A DNA stretch of 64,000 nt from Clostridia bacterium (lineage in GTDB: Bacteria; Bacillota; Clostridia; Christensenellales; Aristaeellaceae), in assembly GCA_017470145.1 (NCBI GenBank), contig JAFUFB010000022.1, positions 1-64,000 on the forward strand. The letters run 5' to 3'. The notes under the pieces were generated by a model. That model was not told the origin of the DNA. It ran no database searches and was given only the letters and a program-made list of their open reading frames with translations. The translations under genes were made by a program, and so were the position numbers. This document shows, piece by piece, positions 25,943-37,039 of the stretch (position 1 is its first letter; each line of letters opens with the position of its first letter).

Positions 25943-27195
25943 ACGATTTGCACCCCACTTCCGTCCACCGCCTCCACGGCGTTCAGGCTCTTTTCCGCCC
26001 AGTCCTTCACCATCAGGATCCCGTGGCGGTAAATCTCCCTTTCTTCCTCCGCCATGGTCGCGAAGGCTCCGTGCATGTAGGGCACCCGCCCGACGCAGTT
26101 CATCAGGCTATTGATTGCGTCCATCACCGCCGCCCCGCTGAGAATTTCCCCGTTGCTTCGTCCCGCGTCTCCTTTGGCAATCTGGCTTTGGGCGTTCAGC
26201 AATTCCTCCTGCATTTGGTTGTATCCCTCTTGCAGGTCTTGAATCGCTTCGTCCTTTTCCCGGATTTCGTCCTCCAGGGCCCGAACCTTCCGCTCCGCTT
26301 CCGCGCTGGCGGTCTGGATGTCCTTGTTTCCTTCAATCGCCGCCCTTGTCATTTCCTGCATTTGGCTTTGTGCCTCTTGCAGCTCCGCAATGGCCCGTTC
26401 CTTCGCCGCGATTTCTTCCCGCATTTCGGCAATCACCGCGTCCTGCCGCATCCTTTGGGCCGTCAGGGCTTCTTCTTTTTCCTCGTCCGCCCGGGCCAGT
26501 GCCGCCTCCGCTGCGTCTAACTGCTCCTTTTGCGCCGTCAGGGCTTCTTCCTTCTCCCGGTCGGCCTTCTCTAAAGCTGCCGTTGCCACGTCCAGCAGGG
26601 CCTTGTTTTCGTCCTTCGCGTCTTCCTTGGCCCGTTCAATGGCCGTTGCCTTCTCCCGTTCCGCTTCCGCCAGGGCCGCTTGTAGCTTCCTTTCCGCCGC
26701 TTCCTTCTGCCGTTGCAGCTCCAGCAATTGACTGGTTTGCAGCGTCTCGAAGCTGATGCGGCTTTTCTCCGCCTGATCCGCCAGGGCCTTCTCGTACCGT
26801 TCCTTTTCCTCCGCCCGGGCCTTCTTCACGGCCTCCTTGATTTCCCTTACGCTCCGGCTGTCCAGGGGCTTCTCCGCGTCCATCTGCTGAATTTCTTCTT
26901 CGCTCATGGGGAGAAGGGCGAACAGCTTGCTCGGCCCTAACTTCGCCAATGGTGAATCCGCCCCATATTTCTTGTAGCTGCTCATGAAGTATTGAGCCGC
27001 CCGCAGATCCACCCCGGCGTTGTCCTTGACCCAGCCTTCCCAGCTGCCATGGTCAATCAGCTCCTTCGCCTCGCACAGCACCCGCCCCAACTGTAGCATG
27101 TTGGATGCCGCCCCCTCGGCGAAGTACCGGGCTTGTCTGGCCAGGTCTTCGATCACGGAGACCCCGCCGCCCGTCGGTGTCGATAGTTCTTTCAC
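25939..27195 (-). CDS. DUF3102-domain protein with long coiled coil
   Basis: GTG start at 27195 with AAGGAGG upstream. Residues about 10-125 match the DUF3102 pattern (LGRVLCEAKELIDHGSWEGW ... AAQYFMSSYKKYG), common on phages and integrative elements of Firmicutes. Residues about 130-345 form a long Glu/Ala/Lys/Gln coiled coil with heptad character (EKEEALTAQ repeats). The C-terminal 70 residues are a small alpha domain. A DNA-binding or segregation-like role is often guessed for this family but is unproven. It directly follows the 0.9-kb structured noncoding region. Confidence 0.75.
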   Translation of the reverse strand: MKELSTPTGGGVSVIEDLARQARYFAEGAASNMLQLGRVLCEAKELIDHGSWEGWVKDNAGVDLRAAQYFMSSYKKYGADSPLAKLGPSKLFALLPMSEEEIQQMDAEKPLDSRSVREIKEAVKKARAEEKERYEKALADQAEKSRISFETLQTSQLLELQRQKEAAERKLQAALAEAEREKATAIERAKEDAKDENKALLDVATAALEKADREKEEALTAQKEQLDAAEAALARADEEKEEALTAQRMRQDAVIAEMREEIAAKERAIAELQEAQSQMQEMTRAAIEGNKDIQTASAEAERKVRALEDEIREKDEAIQDLQEGYNQMQEELLNAQSQIAKGDAGRSNGEILSGAAVMDAINSLMNCVGRVPYMHGAFATMAEEEREIYRHGILMVKDWAEKSLNAVEAVDGSGVQIV

Positions 27196-27273
27196 GGTCT
27201 TTCCTCCTTGATAAAATGTATTTATCCGTCGGATGCCGTCTCGCTGTCCAGCTTAATCCGTCAGAACCTTTGG

Positions 27274-27321
27274 AATTCTCCCGGGGAAAAGAGGTGAAGC
27301 TGTTGAATCTCCCCGGGAGAA
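27274..27321. repeat. 12-bp perfect inverted repeat before DUF3102 gene
   Basis: TTCTCCCGGGGA and TCCCCGGGAGAA are exact complements about 20 bases apart. It lies between the tRNA-like element at 27415 and the DUF3102 gene and may be the 3' end of the noncoding transcript or a control hairpin. Confidence 0.7.
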
Positions 27322-27414
27322 GGCCGATTTTCCCGTTCGCTTGATTCTCGGAAGCTTCAGCCTTTGTGATATTTGCCCCGGCCCATAGTCCGGGTGGCGG
27401 CATTTTTTCCGCCT

Positions 27415-27614
27415 GGAGCAAGGGAGGGGAGTCGAACCCCTCAAGCGGTTGTTGGCACATCCCTGGATCCGTGTAATTTTTGTTGTTACGTGGATACTTC
27501 CTGAACCCCGGCCTTGCATGTAGTGTGGGTCTTTCCCCACCGTCAGCAACGTCCTCGATCCCTGTTTCAGGATGTTGCCAGGAGCACCCCCGGGCCTCCT
27601 TTACGCCTTGCCCC
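27415..27614 (-). ncRNA. Candidate structured RNA with tRNA-like T-arm end (element 1)
   Basis: The minus strand carries a canonical T-arm, AGGGG-TTCGACT-CCCCT, followed by CCCTTGC-T-CCA, like a tRNA 3' end with an encoded CCA. The 3' strand CCTTGCTCC pairs over nine bases (one wobble) with GGGGCAAGG 180 bases upstream; a shorter partner, GCAAGG at 27512-27517, is also possible. No normal tRNA of about 75 bases fits. Further hairpins lie inside (GTGGG-N6-CCCAC, GCAAC..GTTGC). It is not a proper tRNA gene; tRNA mimic, split tRNA or large structured RNA are the options. Confidence 0.5.
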
Positions 27615-27764
27615 CGGTTGGCCGAAACAAGACAATCGTGCTTTTATCCCGCCGACGGGTTGCGGTTGGCGGCCTCGCGGCTGCCATCAAAAAGGAAGAA
27701 CAGTGCCCGTCTTTCCGGGCTGCCAGTTATGCGGCCCATTGGGGCCATCTCCCCTCTGGGCTTG

Positions 27765-28000
27765 TGCGGTAGGGGAGAGTCGAACTCCCCTGGGTGCGCT
27801 TTCGGCGATCACGGCTCGCCGTTGAAAATGGATCCAAGGAGAAATCATGAAAAGGAATGTGTAAGGTGCTACGAAAGGTTTCCGAAAGAGGTTTCCCAAT
27901 GTTTGAAGAAGGTGTTTCCCGTCTGAACCAAGTCCCGCCGGCTGCTGGCCCGGCAGGATCCCCGTTGCCCGTGATGCGCTCCCAATAACCCATTACCGCA
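27765..28000 (-). ncRNA. Candidate structured RNA with tRNA-like T-arm end (element 2)
   Basis: It has the same plan as element 1. T-arm GGGAG-TTCGACT-CTCCC is followed by the 3' strand TACCGCA, which pairs perfectly over seven bases with TGCGGTA, 220 bases upstream. Inside are CCTGCCGG/CCGGCGGG (one wobble), a GGCGA-N7-TCGCC hairpin, and repeated GGGAAAC-CCTT-type motifs. No long frame with protein character is present. The 3' end has no encoded CCA. Two elements with the same layout side by side argue against chance. Confidence 0.5.
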
Positions 28001-28101
28001 TGTAATTATTCTGTGCTGTTCCTGGCATCGATGCTCTCTGCTATTCCCATGCTTAACGATTCTCTTCCTCGCCGTGCCTACGCCATTTCTGGATCGTCAC
28101 G

Positions 28102-28587
28102 TCATACCTCGATAATATCGATCCCCCAGATAGCCTTGACCTGCTTTTTCTTGTTGATGTAAACCCGATCCTTCCGTGTCGCCTCGCTTTTCGCGTCATA
28201 AACGCCTTCAATCTTCATATCCGGCCCAATCGTCACGAAGTCCGCGAAGTATCGTATCCCGCCCGGCAGATCAAAGGGCACCTGCCGAACCACGCACCGC
28301 AATTCCCCAATCCGAACCCGATACATCAGATCCTCGTAAACCCGCGCTTCATGTTCCGAATCAAATTTCATCCCATTGATTTCCACCCTCCTGCTCCCGT
28401 ATTTGTTCCGCCGCTCTGCGTGGCAGTCTGTGCAACCCTCAGCCGTCGCCCGTCCTACTTCGCTCGCCGCTTCCCCGCTTCGCAATGCCGTAGCTTTTCG
28501 GTGCAATTCCGTAGCCATTCGCGCCGGTTCTTTCCCCGTCCGCAAATACTCCCGGTATTCCTCAATCGTCCAGTTCCCTTGTCCCAT
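28102..28587 (-). CDS. DUF1064 family protein, predicted PD-(D/E)XK nuclease fold
   Basis: I chose the ATG at 28587 (161 residues, GGAAGGA upstream), because the in-frame extension further upstream lacks coding character. The C-terminal 100 residues match DUF1064: KFDSEHEARVYEDL carries the first acidic site, RYFADFV the Asp, and VYDAKSEAT the E/D-x-K-like strand of a PD-(D/E)XK core. Such phage proteins are thought to act on recombination or replication intermediates, in place of a Holliday junction resolvase. The N-terminus has a CTDCH pair. Confidence 0.78.
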   Translation of the reverse strand: MGQGNWTIEEYREYLRTGKEPARMATELHRKATALRSGEAASEVGRATAEGCTDCHAERRNKYGSRRVEINGMKFDSEHEARVYEDLMYRVRIGELRCVVRQVPFDLPGGIRYFADFVTIGPDMKIEGVYDAKSEATRKDRVYINKKKQVKAIWGIDIIEV

Positions 28588-28685
28588 GGCCCGTCCTTCC
28601 ATTCGTACCCAATCACAATCCCGTCCCGCATCTGGTACCCCTCCAAGGGCTGTCCCTCCGCGTCCGTAGCCGTTTCGTGTTTCAT
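28455..28685 (-). CDS. Possible small phage protein overlapping DUF1064 gene
   Basis: A frame of 76 codons from an ATG at 28685 with GGAG upstream. The first 40 residues (EGYQMRDGIVIGYEWKDG) look like coding sequence. The rest overlaps the start of the DUF1064 gene in another frame and looks like its shadow. A true shorter gene with a frameshift is possible. Function unknown. Confidence 0.4.
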   Translation of the reverse strand: MKHETATDAEGQPLEGYQMRDGIVIGYEWKDGPWDKGTGRLRNTGSICGRGKNRREWLRNCTEKLRHCEAGKRRAK

Positions 28686-28743
28686 CCTCCCTCCGCATCC
28701 AACAACCATTTTGCGGGCATCACCAAAATGGTTTAAGCCTCCT

Positions 28744-29088
28744 TTAAGTCTGTTTCTCTCCGTCTGTGCAAGTCGCTTTTTTGCTCCAATATGAACAATA
28801 ATCATTTGCGTACCGGCCAACACCGTGATTATCTAAACATCTCGACGGTATGAAGTCATCATTATCCGTAATGTATCCCGGTACCCAGTGTTTGCACTGA
28901 TCACATCTGACAAAGTCAGCGAACGTCTCATGCTCCCTCAACGGGCACCAGTCCGGTTTGCCTTCGTAAGGGACAAACGCATCGTCAATTTCGGCTGGCT
29001 GTACGAAGCAATGTCCTCCAAACTGAAATGAGCATCTGCTGCAATCGGCAGGAATTATCGCAGTGTTTGATTTGATGAATAAACCCAT
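28744..29088 (-). CDS. Cys-rich phage protein, predicted zinc binding
   Basis: The start at 29088 is supported by AAAGGAG six bases upstream. The 114-residue product has Cys pairs (CSRC, CDQCKHW and others) spaced for one or two zinc sites. It is one of several small Cys-rich proteins in the early operon. Function unknown. Confidence 0.68.
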   Translation of the reverse strand: MGLFIKSNTAIIPADCSRCSFQFGGHCFVQPAEIDDAFVPYEGKPDWCPLREHETFADFVRCDQCKHWVPGYITDNDDFIPSRCLDNHGVGRYANDYCSYWSKKATCTDGEKQT

Positions 29089-29129
29089 AATTGTCTCCTT
29101 TAAGTTCGCATTTCGCTCCTTTTGCGAAG

Positions 29130-29477
29130 TTAGTCGTCTACAATCTTCTTGCCGCACCAAGGACATTTTTCAATCTCATGTTCCTGATATTTTTCTGGCA
29201 GTTTAGGTAATGGCATCCACGCAACAATCCTTTCTCCGTTTCGTTCCATGCGCTTCTGCTTGTCTATTGGTGATCGTCTTATGCCGACTTTTTCTGTGCT
29301 ATCGTGCATATACGTATACCAGCCTTCTTCTGAGTTGTAATACCCGACAAAGATTTCATAGTAAACGTGGTTATAATCCGGTCTCTCCATGACACAGAGA
29401 ACATCCTCTGACCAATCGCCACAGGCTCCATCAGCAGGAACAGCTTCTGTAACTGGCATCCATTCTCCGAATTTCAT
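29130..29477 (-). CDS. DUF551-domain phage protein with C-terminal zinc knuckle
   Basis: The ATG at 29477 overlaps the stop of the upstream gene (ATGA). The 115-residue product fits DUF551: WMPVTEAVPADG near the start and VAWMPLPKLPE near the end are the hallmark strands. A CPWCGKK pair follows. DUF551 proteins are common in phages and have no assigned role. Confidence 0.78.
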   Translation of the reverse strand: MKFGEWMPVTEAVPADGACGDWSEDVLCVMERPDYNHVYYEIFVGYYNSEEGWYTYMHDSTEKVGIRRSPIDKQKRMERNGERIVAWMPLPKLPEKYQEHEIEKCPWCGKKIVDD

Positions 29478-29956
29478 TCCAAATTCACCGCCGTTTCTTC
29501 TTTGCGTTTTCTGTTGTACTCTCTCCGCTTTTCCCTCTGAATATCGGCTTTTTCCCGGTAATACGCATCTCTGATGTCTCGGAAATGAACACGAGCTGTA
29601 ATACATGAAGTTATCTGTCTTCCTTGCATTGGTTTTTTGTCCCAAGTAAAATGATTATCTAGATATGGGCTTGTCGTAAATTCTCCGCAGACGTTCCAAA
29701 CCGGAGCATCAGCATAATAGTTCAAAAGCCTTTTAACTTCGGAATAATCGCTACCACCACGCACACCTTCAAACGCATTTTCTGTCAACCAAAAGTCAGA
29801 TAAATCTCTCCGCTTTTTGCCAGCTTTGTAGTCATCAATCCAAGCATCACCAATAACAACATAAATCTTTACAAGCTCTGTATGATAGTGAATTGTTCGG
29901 AGAAACTGCCACAACGGCATTCTGGAATCTTTTTTATTCCACTCCTCAAAAGTCAT
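29474..29956 (-). CDS. Phage protein of unknown function (160 aa)
   Basis: A 160-residue protein, rich in aromatic residues and ending in a strongly charged helix (EKADIQREKRREYNRKRKEE). No family is recognised. It overlaps the DUF551 gene by 4 bp. This part of the early operon (28.7-30.0 kb) is less GC-rich than its flanks, which may mean a later acquisition. Confidence 0.65.
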   Translation of the reverse strand: MTFEEWNKKDSRMPLWQFLRTIHYHTELVKIYVVIGDAWIDDYKAGKKRRDLSDFWLTENAFEGVRGGSDYSEVKRLLNYYADAPVWNVCGEFTTSPYLDNHFTWDKKPMQGRQITSCITARVHFRDIRDAYYREKADIQREKRREYNRKRKEETAVNLE

Positions 29957-30034
29957 GTTATCTTCTCCTAACTCCGGGCATCCCGGTTCTTCGCAATACT
30001 CCTATTTTCTGAATCACTTAAAGTGTCCTTTAAG

Positions 30035-30436
30035 TCACTTACCGTTTATCCTCCGATCCTTCCGGTGCAGCCGGTCAAAAGCCTCATCAAACTCAATTTC
30101 CAGCCCCGTCTTGTCCAAAACCTCCTGGGCCAGATCCCGATGATTCAGCGCCCAAATCACTTTCTCGTCCAGATCCTTCAGTACATCAAAGCACCGATTC
30201 TTCCCGAATCCATACTTGTCATGCAGCACAATACATATCGCCGCGTAACAGCACCGCAAGCTCTCGAAAGACCCGTCCCGCCGCCCGTCCGCGTATCCGT
30301 CATCAAACCCGCTGTCGTATCCGCTCTTCTCCGCGTCCTCCAGGGCCTCCCGCCCCAGAGCCCGGGTAACATACCTGCCGCCCTGCGGCTTCCATCCTCC
30401 CTTGAAATTCCGCTTCCAAGCTGTCCCGCCGCCCAT
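30035..30436 (-). CDS. Phage protein of unknown function (133 aa)
   Basis: The start at 30436 is 5 bp after the stop of the upstream gene; the longer frame to 30571 lies within that gene. The product has an acidic helix (SGYDSGFDDGYADGRRDG), a Cys pair, and a C-terminal helical part (KDLDEKVIWALNHRDLAQEV). This type occurs in other Clostridia phages without known function. Confidence 0.65.
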   Translation of the reverse strand: MGGGTAWKRNFKGGWKPQGGRYVTRALGREALEDAEKSGYDSGFDDGYADGRRDGSFESLRCCYAAICIVLHDKYGFGKNRCFDVLKDLDEKVIWALNHRDLAQEVLDKTGLEIEFDEAFDRLHRKDRRINGK

Positions 30437-30441
30437 CGTCC

Positions 30442-30684
30442 TCACCCCGCCTTCTCCGAGTATCCCAGGAATTGCAGCAACCAAGCCTTGCTCACGTGCA
30501 GCCGGTTCCCGCTGAAAAAGAAACTCCCCTCCGGCATCTTTCCGCATTTCGCCATCAGCGTCACATACCATTGATCAACTTCCAGGAAATGAGCAGCAAT
30601 GGCCGTTCCCACAGTGAATTGTGGCAACCGAGCCAGGTCTTCTACCGTCATTCCCGCGTAATCCGCCGGTGTCTTCCGAGCCAT
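30442..30684 (-). CDS. Small phage protein, possible excisionase-type wHTH
   Basis: The 80-residue protein has a helix-turn-helix pattern (VGTAIAAHFLEVDQWYVTLM) and a following strand-helix (GNRLHVSKAWLLQFLG), similar to the MerR/excisionase-like winged helix of phage regulators. An RBS-like GGAGG lies upstream. An excisionase or operon regulator role is inferred. It lies far from the integrase. Confidence 0.6.
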   Translation of the reverse strand: MARKTPADYAGMTVEDLARLPQFTVGTAIAAHFLEVDQWYVTLMAKCGKMPEGSFFFSGNRLHVSKAWLLQFLGYSEKAG

Positions 30685-30699
30685 AACCGCCCCTCCTTT

Positions 30700-30976
30700 C
30701 CGTTAAATTCCTTCAGTCGTCGCTATTCTTCACAACGCCGTCGCTACGCTCTGCGCTTCCTTTCGCTGCTTTTCCCTGGCAGATCGATGCGTCTCCTGTC
30801 ATCGCCGTTTCTACGCGCTGCCTCACCGAACTAAGCCGTAGCCTTGCGTGCTACTGCTCTTCTTAGCCGTTGCTCGTCGCCGCTGCGTCCCGCAAGGCCC
30901 AGTTTGGCCTCGCCATTCCATCTCTGTGCATAGCCCCGCGCCGCGCATCGCGTCCATACAAGGCCCGGCAGAGCCC
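30700..30976 (-). repeat. Degenerate repeat spacer, early operon (copy 2)
   Basis: No gene is seen between the 80-residue protein gene and the zinc-ribbon gene. The minus strand shows the same loose GCG-A/G-rich units (GAGCGTAGCGACGGCG-like, CGCGGCGCGGGG-like) as the other spacers in this operon. Confidence 0.5.
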
Positions 30977-31279
30977 TCACGGTTCTCTTTCCCTTTGTCC
31001 CCGGTGCGTCTTCGCCTTTCCTTTGGCTTTGCTTTCTCTTTCCTTCTGGGCCGCCCGCCAGCAGTTGTATCTGCAATAGTAGTCATAGCCCCGTTTGCCC
31101 ATCAGCTTGTAAACCCAGCAGGATCCCGCGTAGAATTGTTTCCCGCAATTGGGGCATTTCTTGTTGTAAACCCCGCCGTCCCCGCCATCGACAACCGCGC
31201 TCCCGCGAACCAGCCCGTCTCCCGTCATCAATTCCGCTTCCATGTCTTCCAGTTCCACCAAACCCAACCCACAGTCCAT
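30977..31279 (-). CDS. Phage zinc-ribbon protein
   Basis: The 100-residue protein has an acidic N-terminus and a zinc ribbon of the form KKCPNCGKQF ... DYYCRYNCWR (about 40-75), with a basic tail (KAKGKAKTHRGQRERE). Such small nucleic-acid-binding-like proteins are common in Clostridia phage early regions. It stands alone between two repeat spacers. Confidence 0.68.
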   Translation of the reverse strand: MDCGLGLVELEDMEAELMTGDGLVRGSAVVDGGDGGVYNKKCPNCGKQFYAGSCWVYKLMGKRGYDYYCRYNCWRAAQKERESKAKGKAKTHRGQREREP

Positions 31280-31289
31280 AAATCTCTCC

Positions 31290-31588
31290 GTAGTCCAAAT
31301 TAGCCCAGATTTAGTCTAAGATTAGTCAAAACCATGCTTTGCCGAGTGTAGCGGAGCGTTGCCGCGCAAAGCCATAGCTGCCCAGAGCGAGACAGCGCAG
31401 TCCCGCGCCGCGCCTCTGCCGTTCAATTCCTTTCCTGGCAAATCCTCTGCCGTTCATCTCATCTCACGCTCTGCTTTACCGTTGCGTTTCATTCCATCCC
31501 GAGTCCGCGCCATTCCGTAGCAGTGCCCTTCGCAGCGGGCCCTTGCCATTCCGGCGCATTGCATAACCCTTCGCTGCAATTCCGTCGC
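31290..31588 (-). repeat. Degenerate repeat spacer, early operon (copy 3)
   Basis: No gene is seen. The minus strand has two copies of GAACGGCAGAGG about 32 bp apart (31414-31458), matching one in the 22.5-kb spacer, plus many GGAATGG and GCGAAGGG units. It shows the repeat type most clearly. Confidence 0.65.
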
Positions 31589-31756
31589 TTATCCCAGCTT
31601 ATTCAGCGGGCAGGAATTGCACCGCTCATCGTACATTTTCCCTTCTTCCGATTGCCTGTATTCCTCCGGCCATTTGCAGTATGAGTCGCACATTTCTTCA
31701 ATCACTTCGCAAATAATCCGGCTCACATTCCCATCCGTGTGCTCAATCCTCTCCAT
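31589..31756 (-). CDS. Small Cys-containing phage protein (55 aa)
   Basis: ATG at 31756 with GGAGGT nine bases upstream. The 55-residue product has four or more Cys (ICEV, MCDSYCKW, RCNSCPLN), a pattern that suggests zinc or Fe-S binding and recurs in phage proteins of Clostridia. It ends 300 bp before the next gene. Confidence 0.72.
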   Translation of the reverse strand: MERIEHTDGNVSRIICEVIEEMCDSYCKWPEEYRQSEEGKMYDERCNSCPLNKLG

Positions 31757-31772
31757 GCGCCCGCACCTCCTT

Positions 31773-32057
31773 TTATTTGATAGCCATGAAGGTCATGTCG
31801 CTGCTGCCAGGGTGTAGGTTAATCTCGAATTTTTCGCCCACCGTCGCAATGATCGAATCGTTCCCGTTGTCCGCCACAACCTGAACGATTTCAGGAGCCT
31901 GCTTCGCCAGATCCCGCAGACAATCATGATAAAATTTGTCTCCGTCCACGATGATTTCCGCCTGTGACTCCTGCATAACTTCCCGGCGAATAGTCACCCG
32001 TCCGCCGCCCTCAACAAGGATTTTGCTTTCTTTCGCATTTGTCTTACCCGCCAGCAT
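31773..32057 (-). CDS. Phage protein of unknown function (94 aa)
   Basis: A 94-residue protein with a basic start and mixed alpha/beta pattern (FYHDCLRDLAKQAPEIVQVV). No recognised family. The start overlaps the upstream gene by 14 bp. Confidence 0.65.
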   Translation of the reverse strand: MLAGKTNAKESKILVEGGGRVTIRREVMQESQAEIIVDGDKFYHDCLRDLAKQAPEIVQVVADNGNDSIIATVGEKFEINLHPGSSDMTFMAIK

Positions 32058-32418
32058 TTTCTTTTCCCTCCATCATGATTGCGATCCGTTCTTCCAACAG
32101 CGCAATTATTTCTGCATCGTCTTCCAGCATCCGAATCGCTTTTGAAATTAAGCTAAACATACTGTAACGCGGTTGGTTGCCGTCAGGAGCGTGCATCCGA
32201 AGCTGTTTTATAAGCTTCTCCCGCTCTTCTGGATTGTTTTTTACGGGCTTTTTCTTCCTTTGCTCCTCCGTCAGTTCTTCAAACTCGGCGCAAAGGTCAT
32301 CCGCGTCAACGAAATCGGCGCGATGCTCACTTTTCGCATTCACGCAAACGGAAGTGAAATCATCCGACAGCCACTTGCAATTCCAGCAGCGTTTCTCGCT
32401 CTTTTCGTTCTTTTTCAT
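32044..32418 (-). CDS. Phage protein with N-terminal zinc-finger-like Cys cluster
   Basis: The ATG at 32418 overlaps the stop of the upstream gene (ATGA). The 124-residue product has RCWNCKWLSDDFTSVC and a later Cys near the N-terminus, an acidic centre, and a helical C-terminus (LEDDAEIIALLEERIAIM). Function unknown. Confidence 0.68.
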   Translation of the reverse strand: MKKNEKSEKRCWNCKWLSDDFTSVCVNAKSEHRADFVDADDLCAEFEELTEEQRKKKPVKNNPEEREKLIKQLRMHAPDGNQPRYSMFSLISKAIRMLEDDAEIIALLEERIAIMMEGKENAGG

Positions 32419-32612
32419 TCTTCCTCCGTTGCGTTTTTCTCTTCGTCCTCTTCCAAATAGTGTGCCGCCATCAGCATCAGATCCTGCTTGCAGGGCTTCC
32501 CCCAGTCCGGCCCGTCCTCCGGGCACTCGAAACAAAGCATCCGCTCCTCATTCGTGCAGCATCGAATCCCATAAATAACCTGTTCCCGCGTCAGCATCCC
32601 CGTCTTTTTCAA
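32415..32612 (-). CDS. Small Cys-rich phage protein (65 aa)
   Basis: A 65-residue protein with a GIRCCTNEERMLCFECPED cluster and an acidic tail. It overlaps the upstream methyltransferase-like gene by 65 bp in another frame and is coupled to the next gene. Function unknown. Confidence 0.65.
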   Translation of the reverse strand: MKKTGMLTREQVIYGIRCCTNEERMLCFECPEDGPDWGKPCKQDLMLMAAHYLEEDEEKNATEEE

Positions 32613-33333
32613 TCCCTACGTTTTTCTCGCAAGTCTCCCGGTCGATAATGTACATGGCGATGAATCTCCTGGCGTATTGCCAGTGCATCATGCTCCGCGA
32701 TACTTTCCGGTTCCGTGCAATCCCCAATCTTTCCGCGTGTTTAATCGTCCCTTGATCAACCGGTATTAACGCCTCGAAAATCACATTGCTCTCCGGCTTG
32801 CAATTCACAAACCAGTATTGCGTCGCCTTCTTGTAGTAATCCCCGTTGACCCGCCGGTCTGGGTCAATCACCTTTGGCCGGATAGGAAAGTACATCGTCA
32901 GATAGTGAGGTTGGCTCCTGGGGTTCTCAACAACCATCCTCCACCCCCCCCGAAGGCAGACCATGAATAGCTTGCAGATCCGCATATACATGTCATGCAG
33001 CTCCTGGTGAAGCGTCATCGCGTTTTCCAGCTTCCACTCCGCCGTCCGTGTTCCCATTCCATGCCGTTCACTCCGGAAAGATAACATTATTTGCGTCTCG
33101 AACCTGGTGCAAGGGAAGAAGGCCATTACCAGATCCTCTTTCCCAATCCCGTCAAATAGGCTCTCCCGTCCGTCATACGCCCGGTCAATCTCGTCGAACA
33201 GATCCACCTTGCGATCCGTCTCCCCGAAATCGTCCAGAATGTCGTAATCCTCCGCCGGGATCCCCATCTTCCGAAATTCCCGTTTGAAAGTCCCCGACTG
33301 TTCAAAAAGGCAATGCACCTTCGCAATGTTATT
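32548..33333 (-). CDS. C5-cytosine methyltransferase-like phage protein
   Basis: The start at 33333 (261 residues) avoids an implausible upstream extension that runs through the regulator gene. HCLFEQSGTFK resembles the first SAM-loop of C5-methyltransferases. MAFFPCTRFE holds a Pro-Cys in the place of the catalytic PCQ loop, and VVENPRSQPHY resembles the ENV motif. It is shorter than full methyltransferases, so the target-recognition domain is small or absent. It could modify phage DNA against restriction or be a non-catalytic relative. First gene of the lytic transcript after the Cro-like gene. Confidence 0.65.
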   Translation of the reverse strand, partial: NNIAKVHCLFEQSGTFKREFRKMGIPAEDYDILDDFGETDRKVDLFDEIDRAYDGRESLFDGIGKEDLVMAFFPCTRFETQIMLSFRSERHGMGTRTAEWKLENAMTLHQELHDMYMRICKLFMVCLRGGWRMVVENPRSQPHYLTMYFPIRPKVIDPDRRVNGDYYKKATQYWFVNCKPESNVIFEALIPVDQGTIKHAERLGIARNRKVSRSMMHWQYARRFIAMYIIDRETCEKNVGIEKDGDADAGTGYLWDSMLHE

Positions 33334-33574
33334 CATCTTTCTGGGCCCTCCGGCTGTTGCCTTTCGTGTAGAAGAGCGTCCAATCGAAGCCCAAAGTTTT
33401 GCCGAGCTTTTGGGCCACCCCCACGGAAGGCCGCCGCTTTCCATTCTCTATGTTTGTATAAGCGGCTCTGGAAATTCCGGCGGCTTTTGATACTTCCTCT
33501 TGACTCTTCCCCGCCTTCGTCCTGATTCTTCTTAAATCCGTCTCTTTCACCGCCCTTCTGTTTCGATGTGACAC
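33329..33574 (-). CDS. Cro-like XRE-family regulator
   Basis: The 81-residue protein is almost only a helix-turn-helix (TKAGKSQEEVSKAAGISRAAYTNIENGKRRPS) of the XRE/Cro family. It is transcribed leftwards from a strong promoter, opposite to the CI-like repressor, so it should act as the lytic switch protein. It overlaps the next gene by 5 bp. Confidence 0.85.
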   Translation of the reverse strand: MSHRNRRAVKETDLRRIRTKAGKSQEEVSKAAGISRAAYTNIENGKRRPSVGVAQKLGKTLGFDWTLFYTKGNSRRAQKDE

Positions 33575-33576
33575 AT

Positions 33577-33605
33577 ATAATAGTTTCAGAACGACACTTT
33601 GTCAA
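33577..33605 (-). promoter_or_regulatory. Leftward early (lytic) promoter
   Basis: On the minus strand TTGACA (33600-33605), a 17-base spacer and TATTAT (33577-33582) make a near-consensus sigma-A promoter. It starts only 3 bp before the Cro-like gene's start codon, so the transcript may be leaderless or start with a very short leader. A GTTTC half-site of the likely repressor operator lies in the spacer. Confidence 0.8.
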
Positions 33606-33647
33606 CCCCTTTTCCGAAAAAATGTTTCTTTTTGACACATTTGTTGT

Positions 33648-33672
33648 ATGTTTCACTGTGAAACATTATAAT
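33648..33672 (+). promoter_or_regulatory. Repressor operator palindrome and rightward -10 box
   Basis: ATGTTTCACTGTGAAACAT (33648-33666) is a near-perfect palindrome around one base. TATAAT (33667-33672) follows immediately, and the repressor gene starts 21 bp later. The palindrome is in the spacer of the rightward promoter, the expected place for autoregulation. GTTTC half-sites recur in the leftward promoter. Confidence 0.75.
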
Positions 33673-33692
33673 GTTGTCCGAGGTGAAGCAAA

Positions 33693-34052
33693 GTGTTGTG
33701 TTTAAAGGAAATTCGCCAACGGCAACACAGGACGCAAGCGGAAGTAGCGTCTTTTCTTAACATTGCCCGTGCCTCTTATACGAATCTCGAAAACGAGCGC
33801 AGAGACCTTGATACGGATACAATTCTCGCGCTTGCCGACTTTTTTAACGTGAGTATTGATGAAATTTTCGGGAGAAAAGTAGAAACAAAGAAAGAACATT
33901 TTTCCAAAGATGAAATCCAGTTGTTGGAGTGGTATCGTTCTCTCAATTCAAAAGGGCGCGACCTGGTTAGGCAAACGGCGTACACGGCCTATGCTTCGGA
34001 AATATATAAAAACGACGGAGACGCTTCCGGTGTGGCTGGTAAAGTGATATAA
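33693..34052 (+). CDS. CI-like XRE-family prophage repressor
   Basis: The 119-residue protein has an N-terminal XRE helix-turn-helix (RTQAEVASFLNIARASYTNLENERR) and a short helical C-terminal part for dimerisation. No LexA-like self-cleavage domain is present, so induction must work another way. GTG start at 33693 with AGGTG upstream. It faces away from the lytic operon and should keep the prophage silent. Confidence 0.85.
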   Translation: MLCLKEIRQRQHRTQAEVASFLNIARASYTNLENERRDLDTDTILALADFFNVSIDEIFGRKVETKKEHFSKDEIQLLEWYRSLNSKGRDLVRQTAYTAYASEIYKNDGDASGVAGKVI

Positions 34053-34085
34053 ACATTGTCGAAGAAATCGAGAGGAGCAATTGTA

Positions 34086-34679
34086 ATGAGAAAGATAGCA
34101 GTGATGCTATGCGCGATTGTAATGACCATTCTGTCCGTTTTTGCAACCGCCAGTGCAGGAGGCTTGGAATATCGCCTTAACGAAATCAAGAAAGACAATG
34201 GAGCATTGGAAAAGACGAGTAATTCTGCTGATTTGCCCCTTGCCAGTACGAAAGATTTTGTCTACGATTTCAACTTCTATGGTGCCTTCATGGGTAATGG
34301 CCATGAACTATCCATCGAAAACACGTCAGATTTTGAAAAGTTGAACCACCGTCTTCTTTTCAAGACGATTTTTAACGATTGTGAAATCTTGTCCCTGTGG
34401 TTAACGGAAGACGCAAAACAGGTTTTGAGTGTAAGCTGCACATGGGCAAGTAGCGTGCGGAATTCAGATAAATACTTAGAGGATTTTCTCTGGCTTCTTT
34501 CGGAAGCGTTTTTGGCTTCCGGGGCGGAAGCCAACTCGCTCTCGGATCTGTACGCTAAAATCGGTGAGGCAAACGCATTTAATGTGGGCAGCAAGGGAGA
34601 AATGACAATCGGCGGGGTCTCTTTAAGCTATGAGACCACTTCGTACTCTGGCACTTCGTTCAAAATGGAGCACAAATGA
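34086..34679 (+). CDS. Predicted exported protein of lysogeny region
   Basis: The start at 34086 has AGGAG eight bases upstream. Residues 1-24 are a clear signal peptide (MRKIAVMLCAIVMTILSV followed by FATASA). The mature part (about 173 residues) has no recognised domain. The gene follows the repressor in the same direction, so it is likely expressed in the lysogen. The neighbour at 34719 is also exported. A role in host-cell change or exclusion of other phages is inferred from this placement. Confidence 0.75.
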   Translation: MRKIAVMLCAIVMTILSVFATASAGGLEYRLNEIKKDNGALEKTSNSADLPLASTKDFVYDFNFYGAFMGNGHELSIENTSDFEKLNHRLLFKTIFNDCEILSLWLTEDAKQVLSVSCTWASSVRNSDKYLEDFLWLLSEAFLASGAEANSLSDLYAKIGEANAFNVGSKGEMTIGGVSLSYETTSYSGTSFKMEHK

Positions 34680-34718
34680 TAGGGTCATCTTACCGCAAGT
34701 CCTAAAGGAGGAAATGCC

Positions 34719-35402
34719 ATGCAAGTAAAAGCCACGAAAAGAGTCGTTACAATCATCTGTCTAATTGTAATTACAATTTCCATACTTCCTTGCAGCGTTT
34801 TCGCGGAAGCAACGCGAAAGATTGACACGTTTGAGTATTTGACGGTGTATGGAAAACGATGCATGAAATACATTATCGATCAGGAACTTGATCAAAAGTT
34901 TCTTGTGGGCCCTTCGCTTGTCTATCCATCATTTGCGGATGGTGAAATCGAAGTTGACACGTTCGCAGGTCATCTTACGTTGGGCGCATCTGATTTTATG
35001 ATTAACGAGGTTTCTTTGCCGTTCTACAACGCAGCCTTTTCCGAAAAGAGCTTCGAGGGAGCCATACTCCAATGCATCGTCGCAATATCCGCGCTGGAAT
35101 ACGAGGATAGAAGCGAAAGCATTATGGAATTCCAAGCAAAGTTTGATTCAAGCAAGCCCGCAAGTGCCTTAGAAGCAGCCGGAAGCGTAATGGAAGAAAT
35201 GATCGATGTGATGAATGACCCTGATTTCTTGGAAAATAACCTTGAATTCACCATCGCCGAGAGCGGTTCTGCTTTAGGGAAACGAATGTTGATATACAGC
35301 GGGAACTATGATTATTATCTGGCACCCTATGCAAAGGTAGGGGAAGAAGAGGAAACCGTTGTGATTTATCTTGAGGCGGTGGCAAGGCAGGAAGTCGAAT
35401 AA
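34719..35402 (+). CDS. Second predicted exported protein of lysogeny region
   Basis: AAGGAGG precedes the ATG at 34719. Residues about 1-29 form a signal peptide (VVTIICLIVITISILPCSVFA ends the hydrophobic part; core ICLIVITISILP). The 198-residue mature part is acidic and helical and has no known family. Like the gene upstream it is less GC-rich than the phage structural genes and lies between repressor and integrase, the usual place for lysogenic conversion cargo. Confidence 0.75.
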   Translation: MQVKATKRVVTIICLIVITISILPCSVFAEATRKIDTFEYLTVYGKRCMKYIIDQELDQKFLVGPSLVYPSFADGEIEVDTFAGHLTLGASDFMINEVSLPFYNAAFSEKSFEGAILQCIVAISALEYEDRSESIMEFQAKFDSSKPASALEAAGSVMEEMIDVMNDPDFLENNLEFTIAESGSALGKRMLIYSGNYDYYLAPYAKVGEEEETVVIYLEAVARQEVE

Positions 35403-35434
35403 AAAACCGCCGGGTGTGCTACTCACCCAGCGGC
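35402..35434 (-). terminator. Hairpin with T-run on the minus strand
   Basis: CCGCCGGGTG and CACCCAGCGG form a stem, and on the minus strand it is followed by six T. It starts at the stop of the exported-protein gene and would stop leftward transcripts from the integrase side. It may also act as a 3' stem for the rightward mRNA. Confidence 0.65.
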
Positions 35435-35535
35435 GACGCAAGAACTACCAACACCGATTTTGAAGGAAAATCTTGCATCCCGCATTATATCACGCCCGGA
35501 CCCGTCACGCAACCCCGCCTGCGTCTATTCGTCGG

Positions 35536-35640
35536 AATGTCAGTAAATGTCAGTAAATGTCAGTAAAAATCCGATGATATTAGCAAATATCGCTAAATCC
35601 TTCTAAATACCACCAAATCCCGCCAAATACCGCCAAATCC
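35536..35640. repeat. Two 10-bp-phased repeat arrays before the integrase
   Basis: AATGTCAGTA is repeated three times without change (35536-35565). About 15 bp further, six loose 10-bp units of the type CCGCCAAATA run to about 35640 and end just before the integrase ribosome binding site. Ten-bp phasing puts each unit on the same face of the helix. They are candidates for arm-type binding sites of the recombinase or for its autoregulation. Confidence 0.75.
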
Positions 35641-35659
35641 AAAGAAAGGAGGCCGCCGG

Positions 35660-36823
35660 ATGCTCTGTCCCCGCTGCAATCGCGAAATCCCGGATGACGC
35701 ATTGCTTTGCTGTTATTGCGCCCGATCCATCACCCGCCAACCCAGGGCCAGCCGTAAATTGCCAAATGGCACCGGCACCGTCTTTCAGCGAAAGGGGCAA
35801 ACCACCTGGACGGCGCAAATCACAGATCCCGACGGCTGGTTCATCGACGAAGATGGGAAGCGTTACCGGCGATATAAAACCAAGGGAGGCTTTAAGAAAA
35901 AGACGGATGCTCTAAAATATCTTGAGCAGCTTCGTCAGGAAGCGAAAGAGAAAACCGCTCCTCCGCTTCAGGCATACTGGAAGCTTTATTCCTCCGGCGA
36001 AATGGACAAGCTGTCCGGGAGCAAACAAACCGCCTACAAAATCGCCTGGGGGAAGCTTTCCAGCATTGCCACCCGTCGCGTGGATCTATTAACCGTCGCC
36101 GATCTTCGCTCCGTGGTAGAGGAAAACGCACCCACATTTTATCCGGCGCGTGACATGAAGGTGCTTCTATCCCACCTGTTTACCCTCGCCGCAGCGGACG
36201 GCTTCGCAAACAAAGACCTTCCGTCCTTCATCAACCTCCCGGAGAAGAACGAAACCGCCCGGGAAGCCTTCACAGAACAGGAACAAGCCGCCCTCTGGCG
36301 GTGCTATGAATCCGGCTATGCTGACGCGGGAATCCCGCTCATCATGATTTATACAGGCATGATGACAGGGGAAATGGCAAGGCTGGAAGGCTCCATGGTC
36401 AACTTCGATAGTAACACCATCATCGGTGTCGGTTTGAAAACCAAAGTCCGCAAAGAGTCCCCGGTGTACTTCCCAGACGACATCAAGCCCGTCCTGGCGG
36501 AACTGATCGGGGAGAACACTGGCCGAATCTTCACCCGTCACAAGGAAGAAATCTATGACCGCTATTACGCTGCCCTGGAAAAGGCAGGAGTCCGCAAACT
36601 ATCGCCCTATTCCTGCCGCCATACCACCGCCACGCGCCTTGCCGTGACAAACGTCATCGCGCCACAGACGGTGCAGAAAATCATGCGCTGGTCGTCAACC
36701 AAGATGCTTGACCGCTATGCGCACCCAGATAACGCGGATGCCCTCGCCGCCATCCAGACGTTAAATGCAAAGCAGGGTGAAAACCCAGCACCCAGCGGCG
36801 AGAAAAGCAGCCAGCAAGCCTAA
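35660..36823 (+). CDS. Tyrosine recombinase integrase with N-terminal zinc ribbon
   Basis: The 387-residue protein starts with a zinc ribbon (CPRCNREIPDDALLCCYC, residues about 3-20). Then come an AP2-like DNA-binding segment (about 35-90), a SAM-like core-binding domain, and the catalytic domain (about 200-370). Visible catalytic elements are KTKVRKE (Lys), SCRHTTATRL (Arg and adjacent His) and DRYAHP (Tyr nucleophile). Two canonical residues differ: the first Arg motif reads TGMMTGEM, and the second His is Trp in MRWSS. This looks like a known Clostridia subfamily variant. It lies beside the tRNA-Ser attachment site. Confidence 0.9.
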   Translation: MLCPRCNREIPDDALLCCYCARSITRQPRASRKLPNGTGTVFQRKGQTTWTAQITDPDGWFIDEDGKRYRRYKTKGGFKKKTDALKYLEQLRQEAKEKTAPPLQAYWKLYSSGEMDKLSGSKQTAYKIAWGKLSSIATRRVDLLTVADLRSVVEENAPTFYPARDMKVLLSHLFTLAAADGFANKDLPSFINLPEKNETAREAFTEQEQAALWRCYESGYADAGIPLIMIYTGMMTGEMARLEGSMVNFDSNTIIGVGLKTKVRKESPVYFPDDIKPVLAELIGENTGRIFTRHKEEIYDRYYAALEKAGVRKLSPYSCRHTTATRLAVTNVIAPQTVQKIMRWSSTKMLDRYAHPDNADALAAIQTLNAKQGENPAPSGEKSSQQA

Positions 36824-36944
36824 ATCTGCATGGCAAATGAACGACTAATGGAGGCAAGAAGAGAACTTAGTCAAGCAGCCCGTATGACGAATCAATGACT
36901 GACGTGAGAGCTAAAAGCTTTGTAGCTCAATGTGGGGCCATGCC

Positions 36945-37000
36945 CTGCTAAGGGAGTAGTGCGGGTGACCGCAGCCCGGGTTCAAATCCCGGCTTCTCCG
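36945..37000 (+). tRNA. 3' part of tRNA-Ser(GCU): right attachment site
   Basis: From the anticodon loop CTGCTAA (anticodon GCT at 36947-36949) onwards the sequence fits a tRNA-Ser: a long variable arm (GTGCGGGTGACCGCAG), the T-arm CCGGGTTCAAATCCCGG and the acceptor strand CTTCTCC-G. The 5' half is wrong: no GGAGAAG acceptor strand or Ser D-arm precedes it, and only 3 of 5 anticodon-stem pairs form. The best reading is a tRNA cut by prophage integration; the 5' half should lie at the left prophage end. Confidence 0.75.
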
Positions 37001-37006
37001 CATATA

Positions 37007-37039
37007 CCTCGGAAGATCAACACTTCCGGGGTTTTCTTT
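37007..37039 (+). terminator. Terminator after tRNA-Ser
   Basis: CCTCGGAAG pairs with CTTCCGGGG (one wobble) across a 7-base loop, followed by TTTTCTTT. It would end the tRNA transcript and is host DNA just beyond the prophage. Confidence 0.8.

Follow-up and report, generated by a model that had tools for sequence, protein, structure and literature searches.

Candidate tRNA-like RNAs and a conserved hairpin in a gene-free stretch of a Clostridia prophage

What does a prophage encode in a part of its early region that holds no gene? The window analysed here, a stretch of 64,000 nucleotides from a Clostridia bacterium, is a prophage region in which the genes flanking the finding are early genes, all on the minus strand. 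The gene-free stretch between a DUF1064 gene and a DUF3102 gene (Table 1) had been proposed to hold two neighbouring RNA-like elements, each closed by a T-arm and an acceptor-like helix. Two perfect 5-bp T-arms with the loop TTCGACT do stand on the minus strand (loop starts 27784 and 27436, 348 nt apart), and this part of the original prediction was borne out, as two strict T-arms on that strand were never obtained when the gene-free stretch (905 of 906 bases) was shuffled 3000 times. The whole 64-kb window contains three strict T-arms on both strands, compared with a mean of 0.48 in shuffled windows, and a same-strand pair less than 400 nt apart occurs in 0/60 shuffles.

Table 1. Coordinates of the features discussed in the text (minus strand throughout)
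Feature	Position	Strand	Description
Gene-free stretch	27196..28101	-	906 bases, from the DUF1064 gene to the DUF3102 gene; holds both elements
DUF1064 gene	28698-28102	-	Pfam DUF1064, 6.2e-08
DUF3102 gene	27195-25939	-	Pfam DUF3102, 7.6e-12
Element 2, probable tRNA-like RNA	27762..27999	-	238 nt; leader ends ACAT; after the T-arm A-CAA
Element 2 acceptor			GCGGTAA/CTACCGC 6/7, A.C at inner end; or TGCGGTA/TACCGCA 7/7, one base out
Element 2 T-arm	27773..27789	-	GGGAG TTCGACT CTCCC
CTCCTT, anti-Shine-Dalgarno-like hexamer	27836..27841	-	In the insert of element 2
Hairpin 1	27705..27725	-	TGGCA GCCC GGAAAGAC GGGC, then A; no tRNA-like RNA directly 3'
Alternative 5' strand of element 1, GGGGCAAGG	27606..27614	-	As originally predicted; pairs 27614-27606 with 27423-27415
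Hairpin 2	27525..27545	-	TGACG GTGG GGAAAGAC CCAC, then A; inside element 1 as originally predicted
Element 1 leader	27524-27518	-	ACTACAT, 7 nt, between hairpin 2 and the RNA
Element 1 redefined, very likely a tRNA-like RNA	27414..27517	-	104 nt; acceptor GCAAGGC/CCCTTGC 6/7; discriminator U; encoded CCA
Element 1 D-arm	27492..27508	-	GGGT, loop TCAGGAAGT with GG, ATCC
Element 1 T-arm	27425..27441	-	AGGGG TTCGACT CCCCT
Inverted repeat TTCTCCCGGGGA / TCCCCGGGAGAA	27276..27321	-	At least 12 perfect pairs, by eye; without T-run

The third strict T-arm, at 36981 (+), belongs to a tRNA remnant on the integrase side. This 3' part of a tRNA (36943-37015 (+), tRNA-Ser by eye, T-arm CCGGG TTCAAAT CCCGG) lies just past the integrase gene (35660-36823), recurs as a 96% copy on a different contig of the same genome (G000:C29:68-141) and is probably the prophage attachment site. 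Derivation of the two T-arms from the attachment site was rejected, as the integrase-adjacent remnant is 9 kb off.

The elements correspond to no listed RNA. ARAGORN finds no tRNA in the window, also with introns of up to 300 nt allowed, in line with the claim that neither is a normal tRNA, and no Rfam model reaches its gathering score in the window, as expected of tRNA-like RNAs of a phage early region outside the listed families. The suggested kinship with GOLLD, ROOL or Y RNA fell away, with no match even at E<=10 in a covariance-model search of 26900-28400. The elements are neither an artefact nor ordinary, and their description as RNAs with a T-arm is right in kind. Their structures hold to a shared plan in acceptor and T-arm; the shared long plan that had been proposed was not retained.

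The predicted pairing of the 3' strand of element 2 with its start is present as a closure of seven perfect pairs, equalled in 0/400 shuffles with the register free by 2. Neither a D-arm nor an anticodon arm was detected in element 2 by the criteria used, nor an upstream hairpin or a CCA, and no Rfam model matched it at relaxed thresholds. A possible inner helix, ATCACGG/CCGTGAT, is within chance (P 0.16). Element 2 is probably a tRNA-like RNA; its structure is less supported than that of the class and of element 1.

Element 1 required redefinition. The 9-bp closure originally given to a 200-nt element reaches a P of only 0.027 and takes up the discriminator along with two CCA bases. GCAAGG recurs at 27517, 7 nt past a conserved hairpin and with a D-arm next to it, delimiting an RNA of 104 nt (27517-27414 (-)) that retains the encoded CCA noted before (27416-27414). 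The 6/7 acceptor closure is within chance when taken alone (best closure in a free search, P 0.30), and the boundary is drawn from position, leader and D-arm because the closure by itself is insufficient. The D-arm carries GG in its loop, and a 5-bp anticodon stem with a 7-nt loop and U33 is absent. The earlier 5' strand could compete with GCAAGG at 27517. Element 1 is very likely a tRNA-like RNA, and its structure is fairly supported. Upstream of hairpin 2, AAAGGAGG precedes GTG and an open frame of six codons (~27602-27568 (-), by eye), possibly a leader peptide or a chance occurrence.

Predicted folding energies add little, with unexceptional minimum free energies for the two elements (z -1.1 and -0.9) and a z of -1.9 for the whole 902-nt stretch (20 shuffles). 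The inverted repeat, 3' of element 1 and 5' of the DUF3102 gene, forms 13 pairs in the whole-stretch fold. Same-DNA searches with the stretch returned four pieces of 22-38 nt and nothing more from 60 relatives, one 18-nt piece only from the same genome, and short pieces in seven phage records, of which the 32-nt one is the hairpin. No close homologue of either element was found in these searches, and neither element therefore has covariation of its own. The DUF3102 gene as bait in IMG/VR gave 11 stretches with the pattern and no relative, and DUF1064 occurs in 1/45 genomes of the genus, this genome alone.

The locus can be placed through its hairpins. Internal hairpins had been mentioned in the original prediction; the two that tie the locus to a wider class had not been singled out. 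Hairpins 1 and 2 differ on both sides of their stems and follow one plan, UGRCR, stem, GGAAAGAC, stem, first met as TGACAGCCsGGAAAGACsGGCA before RNAs of related loci. In IMG/VR, a scan with one stem pair left free returned at least 120 stretches, and the free pair was Watson-Crick in 117/125 matches; among the matches listed, the 5' foot TGRC was present in 97 of the 124 whose flank was long enough. A second scan with four free stem positions, again with at least 120 stretches, gave 83 new-locus matches, 35 of them Watson-Crick at 4/4 positions. These 35 hairpins comprise 14 different stems, whereas permuted octamers in the same sequences were fully paired in 110/21,407 cases (0.5%). Covariation was assessed in 57 of the 83 new-locus matches (38 distinct), chosen irrespective of pairing. 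Stem cells were paired in 76.3%, compared with 56.6% after shuffling and 29-38% in sliding controls, and the covariation score was 0.506 versus 0.191 for shuffled sets, with 0/500 shuffles as high. Two of five covariation measures were not above shuffles (both-side pair changes, 412/500; further pair types, 138/500). The hairpin is almost certainly a real conserved RNA element.

Its spread is wide. The exact pattern occurs in at least 118 stretches of GTDB species genomes, and the 80 matches listed, putatively in prophages, fall in Pseudomonadota, Clostridia, Bacteroidales, other Bacteroidota, Spirochaetes, Planctomycetes and Patescibacteria, as well as Leptolinea (Chloroflexota), Omnitrophota, Lentisphaerae, Ignavibacteria and Gastranaerophilales. 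Per genome it is rare (3/45 in the genus and 2/297 in the order, this genome counted in both), which fits a part of a mobile element. Open frames of 100 codons or more on the same strand cover 36% of 182 hairpins, compared with 71% of random points. Among named phages, the hairpin lies in intergenic gaps of mEp390, Medea1, Klebsiella P7641 and Acinetobacter Alexa, and the remaining matches are partial or beneath annotated genes; isolated phages with matches are mEp390, Cronobacter ESP2949-1 and Stenotrophomonas Pokken. In six loci (L146, L147, L150, L160, L172, L239), two hairpins with different stems stand in direct tandem, 20-21 nt apart.

No Rfam family matches the hairpin at its cut-off, and the only overlap in the window at E<=10 is a chance-level hit to Flavi_CRE (17.9 bits versus 42). 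Titles and abstract openings in one open-access library yielded no literature on this hairpin or RNA class. A third match to foot plus octamer in the same genome (C22:139064) was discarded as it lacks the stem. The loop GGAAAGAC is also the octamer of E. coli 23S rRNA 2056-2063 (numbering from the available portion of PMC12887398), an identity too common to support a claim and perhaps coincidental.

The hairpin is linked to tRNAs and tRNA-like RNAs on its 3' side. Among the matches listed, the nearest ARAGORN tRNA within 500 nt lies on the same strand for 24/120 hairpins and on the opposite strand for 0. A closure was scored when an acceptor strand 1-14 nt past the hairpin formed at least 6/7 pairs and closed on a T-arm. 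Such an RNA follows within 14 nt in 52/241 distinct hairpins, compared with a mean of 1.2 and a maximum of 5 at random positions (200 rounds), and 25/241 also have an encoded CCA, versus 0.7 at random. Shifted starts gave 0-4 closures, except for 12 (200 nt) and 15 (300 nt) on the upstream side of the hairpins, because neighbouring tRNA-like RNAs cluster. In the 25 cases with CCA the leader measures 3-8 nt (5-7 nt in 20), and the 52 RNAs span 63-368 nt, with plain tRNAs among them (L111, L113, L169, L109). Bacterial RNase P favours U at -1, and U occupies this position in 36/52 RNAs, element 1 included, versus 342/945 matched offsets past hairpins that lack such an RNA.

Which tRNA arms are kept is informative, since the D-arm was not among the search criteria, while acceptor and T-arm were. 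The 23 RNAs in the range 96-299 nt include element 1; by the criterion, a D-arm is present in 13 (shuffled 3.1, maximum 9) and absent from 10, and two show an arm with 5 bp, a 7-nt loop and U33 (shuffled 0.85, maximum 4). By comparison, 25 RNAs of 70-95 nt have 15 D-arms (shuffled 4.0) and eight anticodon arms (shuffled 0.2). These counts indicate that the long RNAs tend to retain the tRNA elbow, with anticodon arms at chance. The criteria were set after the first examples, which the random-position and shuffle controls offset in part. The class structure, with acceptor, T-arm and an excess of D-arms and with no excess of anticodon arms in long members, is well supported.

Single members illustrate the range of forms. 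A 232,937-bp viral contig (L059) shows the hairpin followed by a 233-nt tRNA-like RNA with a 7/7 acceptor, a D-arm and ACCA. A genome of the same genus (L145) has two tRNA-like RNAs that share the acceptor CGGAACG/CGTTCCG and flank one hairpin, one of ~60 nt without an anticodon arm (45.6 bits with the Rfam tRNA model) and one of 154 nt. Possible kissing between an enlarged anticodon loop and the variable arm was seen by eye in two RNAs only (L007_6117, TGGCAGC/GCTGCCA; L147, GATAG/CTATC).

The position of the elements recurs in related phages. With DUF1064 as bait, IMG/VR gave 12 related loci, in which a T-arm scan revealed several unusual tRNA-like closures. Six RNAs of these loci pass the cut-off of the Rfam tRNA model, and four of the six measure 110-118 nt; ARAGORN without introns finds two genes. 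Such RNAs or hairpins occur in 6/12 loci (L007, L008, L009, L012, L014, L016) and, by the criteria, in none of the other six (L010, L011, L013, L015, L017, L018). In 4/6 loci showing both genes (L007, L012, L014, L016) the RNAs lie between DUF1064 and DUF3102; of the other two, L009 has its RNAs on the upstream side of DUF1064, and L013 shows only an unclosed T-arm, located within the DUF3102 match. A genome of the same family (L354) presents a hairpin, a 4-nt leader, a 110-nt RNA, a second hairpin and a DUF3102 relative (tblastn 1.9e-26).

The RNAs of the related loci form two families. Family A (110-140 nt) comes first in order and carries CCUCCU in the insert in 5/5 members, and family B measures 113-121 nt. 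A D-arm is present in 4/4 of family B and 1/5 of family A, an anticodon arm in neither. The CCUCCU is predicted to be unpaired in L007 and L012, unpaired at 4/6 bases in L008, and mixed in L016 and L009. Anti-Shine-Dalgarno hexamers occur in 8 of 32 long inserts (element 2, 23 post-hairpin inserts and eight picked manually from related loci), compared with 0.95 in shuffled inserts (maximum 4, 300 rounds). They are not claimed for the class as a whole, because five of the eight inserts are from family A and the frequency elsewhere is near chance. Element 2 is possibly a counterpart of family A, because it stands first in order, lacks a D-arm like 4/5 of family A and has CUCCUU. An inner helix is claimed neither for family A nor for element 2 (each P 0.10-0.35). 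Pairing in cis between element 2 and the start of DUF3102 was unconvincing (P 0.067, 60 shuffles); among 16 phage starts, three gave a lower P than DUF3102 (21706, 0.017; 30571, 0.033; 31279, 0; 60 shuffles each).

On balance, we think it likely that this stretch serves a temperate phage as an RNA locus in its early operon, making non-decoding tRNA-like RNAs that are processed as tRNAs are. The best reading is that in these RNAs the anticodon arm is replaced by another domain, with a function that we infer from the sequence. The early transcript would carry the tRNA-like RNAs, and RNase P would cut at their 5' ends, as suggested by leaders that mostly end in U. The 3' end would be finished to CCA, releasing a stable tRNA-like RNA from the early transcript. 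The domain that replaces the anticodon arm would do the work, most likely by base pairing. In family A the insert would perhaps pair with ribosome-binding sites, an action on translation starts suggested by the anti-Shine-Dalgarno CCUCCU of this one subfamily of related phages.

Several other explanations bear on the same observations. The tRNA-like parts may serve only as cutting sites in the early transcript, between DUF1064 and DUF3102, the released RNAs having no further role. Such a use agrees with L007, where the RNAs alternate with short open frames, and with the leader lengths, by which RNase P, cutting as predicted, would leave the hairpin on the newly made 3' end; we nevertheless consider it unlikely, as inserts of 100-230 nt are needless for cutting and 189/241 hairpins have no tRNA-like RNA directly 3'.

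Decoys against phage defences that cut tRNAs would offer acceptor, elbow and CCA without a cleavable anticodon loop, soaking up or resisting the nucleases. The retained parts are those seen by tail- or elbow-recognising enzymes, and tRNA-targeting defences exist, for example Cas12a3, which is reported to cut tRNA tails (PMC12851939). The large, diverse inserts and the hairpin are left unexplained by this proposal, which appears distinctly unlikely.

Ordinary phage tRNA genes in decay, with inserts as debris and a product without a role, would account for the ordinary tRNAs 3' of some hairpins (the four loci named above). Phages gain and lose tRNA genes, and a normal tRNA-Arg may be found at the homologous place of E. 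coli prophages. Decay is at odds, however, with D-arms above chance and anticodon arms at chance in long members, with the U kept at -1 in leaders, and with several such RNAs per phage in one syntenic place, and it seems improbable.

Intron-bearing tRNAs, with introns in the anticodon loop that are spliced by an unknown route, are a very unlikely source of the long forms. ARAGORN with introns allowed finds five such tRNAs in the related loci (L007 two, L009 one, L014 two), and the four RNAs of 110-118 nt score above the cut-off of the Rfam tRNA model. The corresponding search of the window gave 0, though, the 7-nt loop with U33 is not enriched in the (unspliced) long members, and no intron family is among the Rfam gathering-score matches. 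A phage relative of tmRNA, with a tRNA-like domain and a long internal domain, is highly improbable, for although element 2 lacks a D-arm and its possible helix ATCACGG/CCGTGAT lies where tmRNA has a long helix, that helix is within chance and element 2 has no Rfam match at all, the tmRNA models, once suggested as relatives, touch only the T-arm of element 1 (17 positions, 8-11 bits versus cut-offs of 47-70; at best 11.2 bits, E 0.0053, 17/374 positions), and ARAGORN finds 0 tmRNAs in the window.

With non-decoding, tRNA-processed RNAs as the preferred reading, the role of the hairpin is less sure. It is best read as an undescribed cis-acting phage element, and it would be a signal for transcripts that carry untranslated RNA. 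It might let transcription run through terminators, an effect that HK022 put achieves by other means. Antitermination is supported by the hairpin's place in early leaders of lambdoid-type phages (mEp390, E. coli prophages) and weakly hinted at by a slight excess of same-strand terminator-like sites 3' of the hairpin: for 293 hairpins, 44 after versus 28 before within 300 nt, and 79 versus 64 within 1000 nt. Alternatively, it might give a protected 3' end to the upstream RNA after RNase P cleavage, by analogy with mascRNA/MALAT1, which its short and narrow distance to the presumed RNase P sites supports. In the E. coli prophages and mEp390 (L356 1471-1664, L357 1180-1850, L139 2280-2760), a long noncoding leader contains repeated long stems (GAAAGCGC..) and terminator-like hairpins, the latter judged by eye; L356 also has a degenerate hairpin with a normal tRNA-Arg(tct) downstream of it.

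The hairpin behind the window elements may be the larger discovery. More tentatively, phages of many phyla may share an undescribed hairpin that marks a new RNA class, built on a tRNA-like chassis with effector domains in place of the anticodon arm, the hairpin acting on a conserved host component such as RNA polymerase, an RNase or the ribosome. If so, viruses would have in tRNA processing a general way to make stable RNAs, and many 'tRNA' counts and many stretches called 'gene-free' in phages would have been misread.

Comparison with known systems sets the locus in context. The elements share acceptor and T-arm with tRNA (RF00005), element 1 also the D-arm, encoded CCA and short leader, and ordinary tRNAs occur among the relatives 3' of the same hairpin. 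They differ in their lengths of 104 and 238 nt and in lacking an anticodon arm of 5 bp with a 7-nt loop and U33; neither ARAGORN nor RF00005 gives a tRNA match in the window. A well-known bacterial RNA with a tRNA-like end on another RNA domain is tmRNA (RF00023). The likeness lies in a tRNA-like closure around a long non-tRNA domain and in the missing D-arm of element 2, whereas the model aligns to the T-arm of element 1 alone and element 1 has a D-arm. Rfam includes GOLLD, ROOL and Y RNA-like models, for which the 64 kb hold no gathering-score match. In human MALAT1, release of the tRNA-like mascRNA gives the upstream RNA a structured 3' end; the mascRNA model (RF01684) matches L147 weakly (18.6 bits versus a cut-off of 42.5, below the 21.4 of the tRNA model there), which implies no relation. 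Small RNAs with C-rich loops, such as RNAIII, resemble family A in their CCUCCU but are not tRNA-like.

Irregular tRNAs from soil, some of them not aminoacylated, also occur in polycistrons (Mukai et al. 2017, as summarised in the accessible part of PMC7609411). These allo-tRNAs have a long acceptor branch (8/4 or 9/3), in contrast to the RNAs described here, and that part of the article makes no mention of a hairpin. The 204-nt small RNA P22G of Salmonella phage P22 presents GGAAAGAC between the short complementary arms CUGAU and AUCGG, without the UGRCR foot, according to the available excerpt of PMC13397905. HK022 put, in the portion of PMC9378689 at hand, is an RNA of ~70 nt with two stem-loops in a temperate phage early leader. 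As an identity for the hairpin it seems unlikely, with no match in HK022 26000-36000 (10 kb, sparsely annotated and presumed to include put). What the two have in common is their setting, an early-leader RNA, with the hairpin at a like place in mEp390, also of the subfamily Hendrixvirinae.
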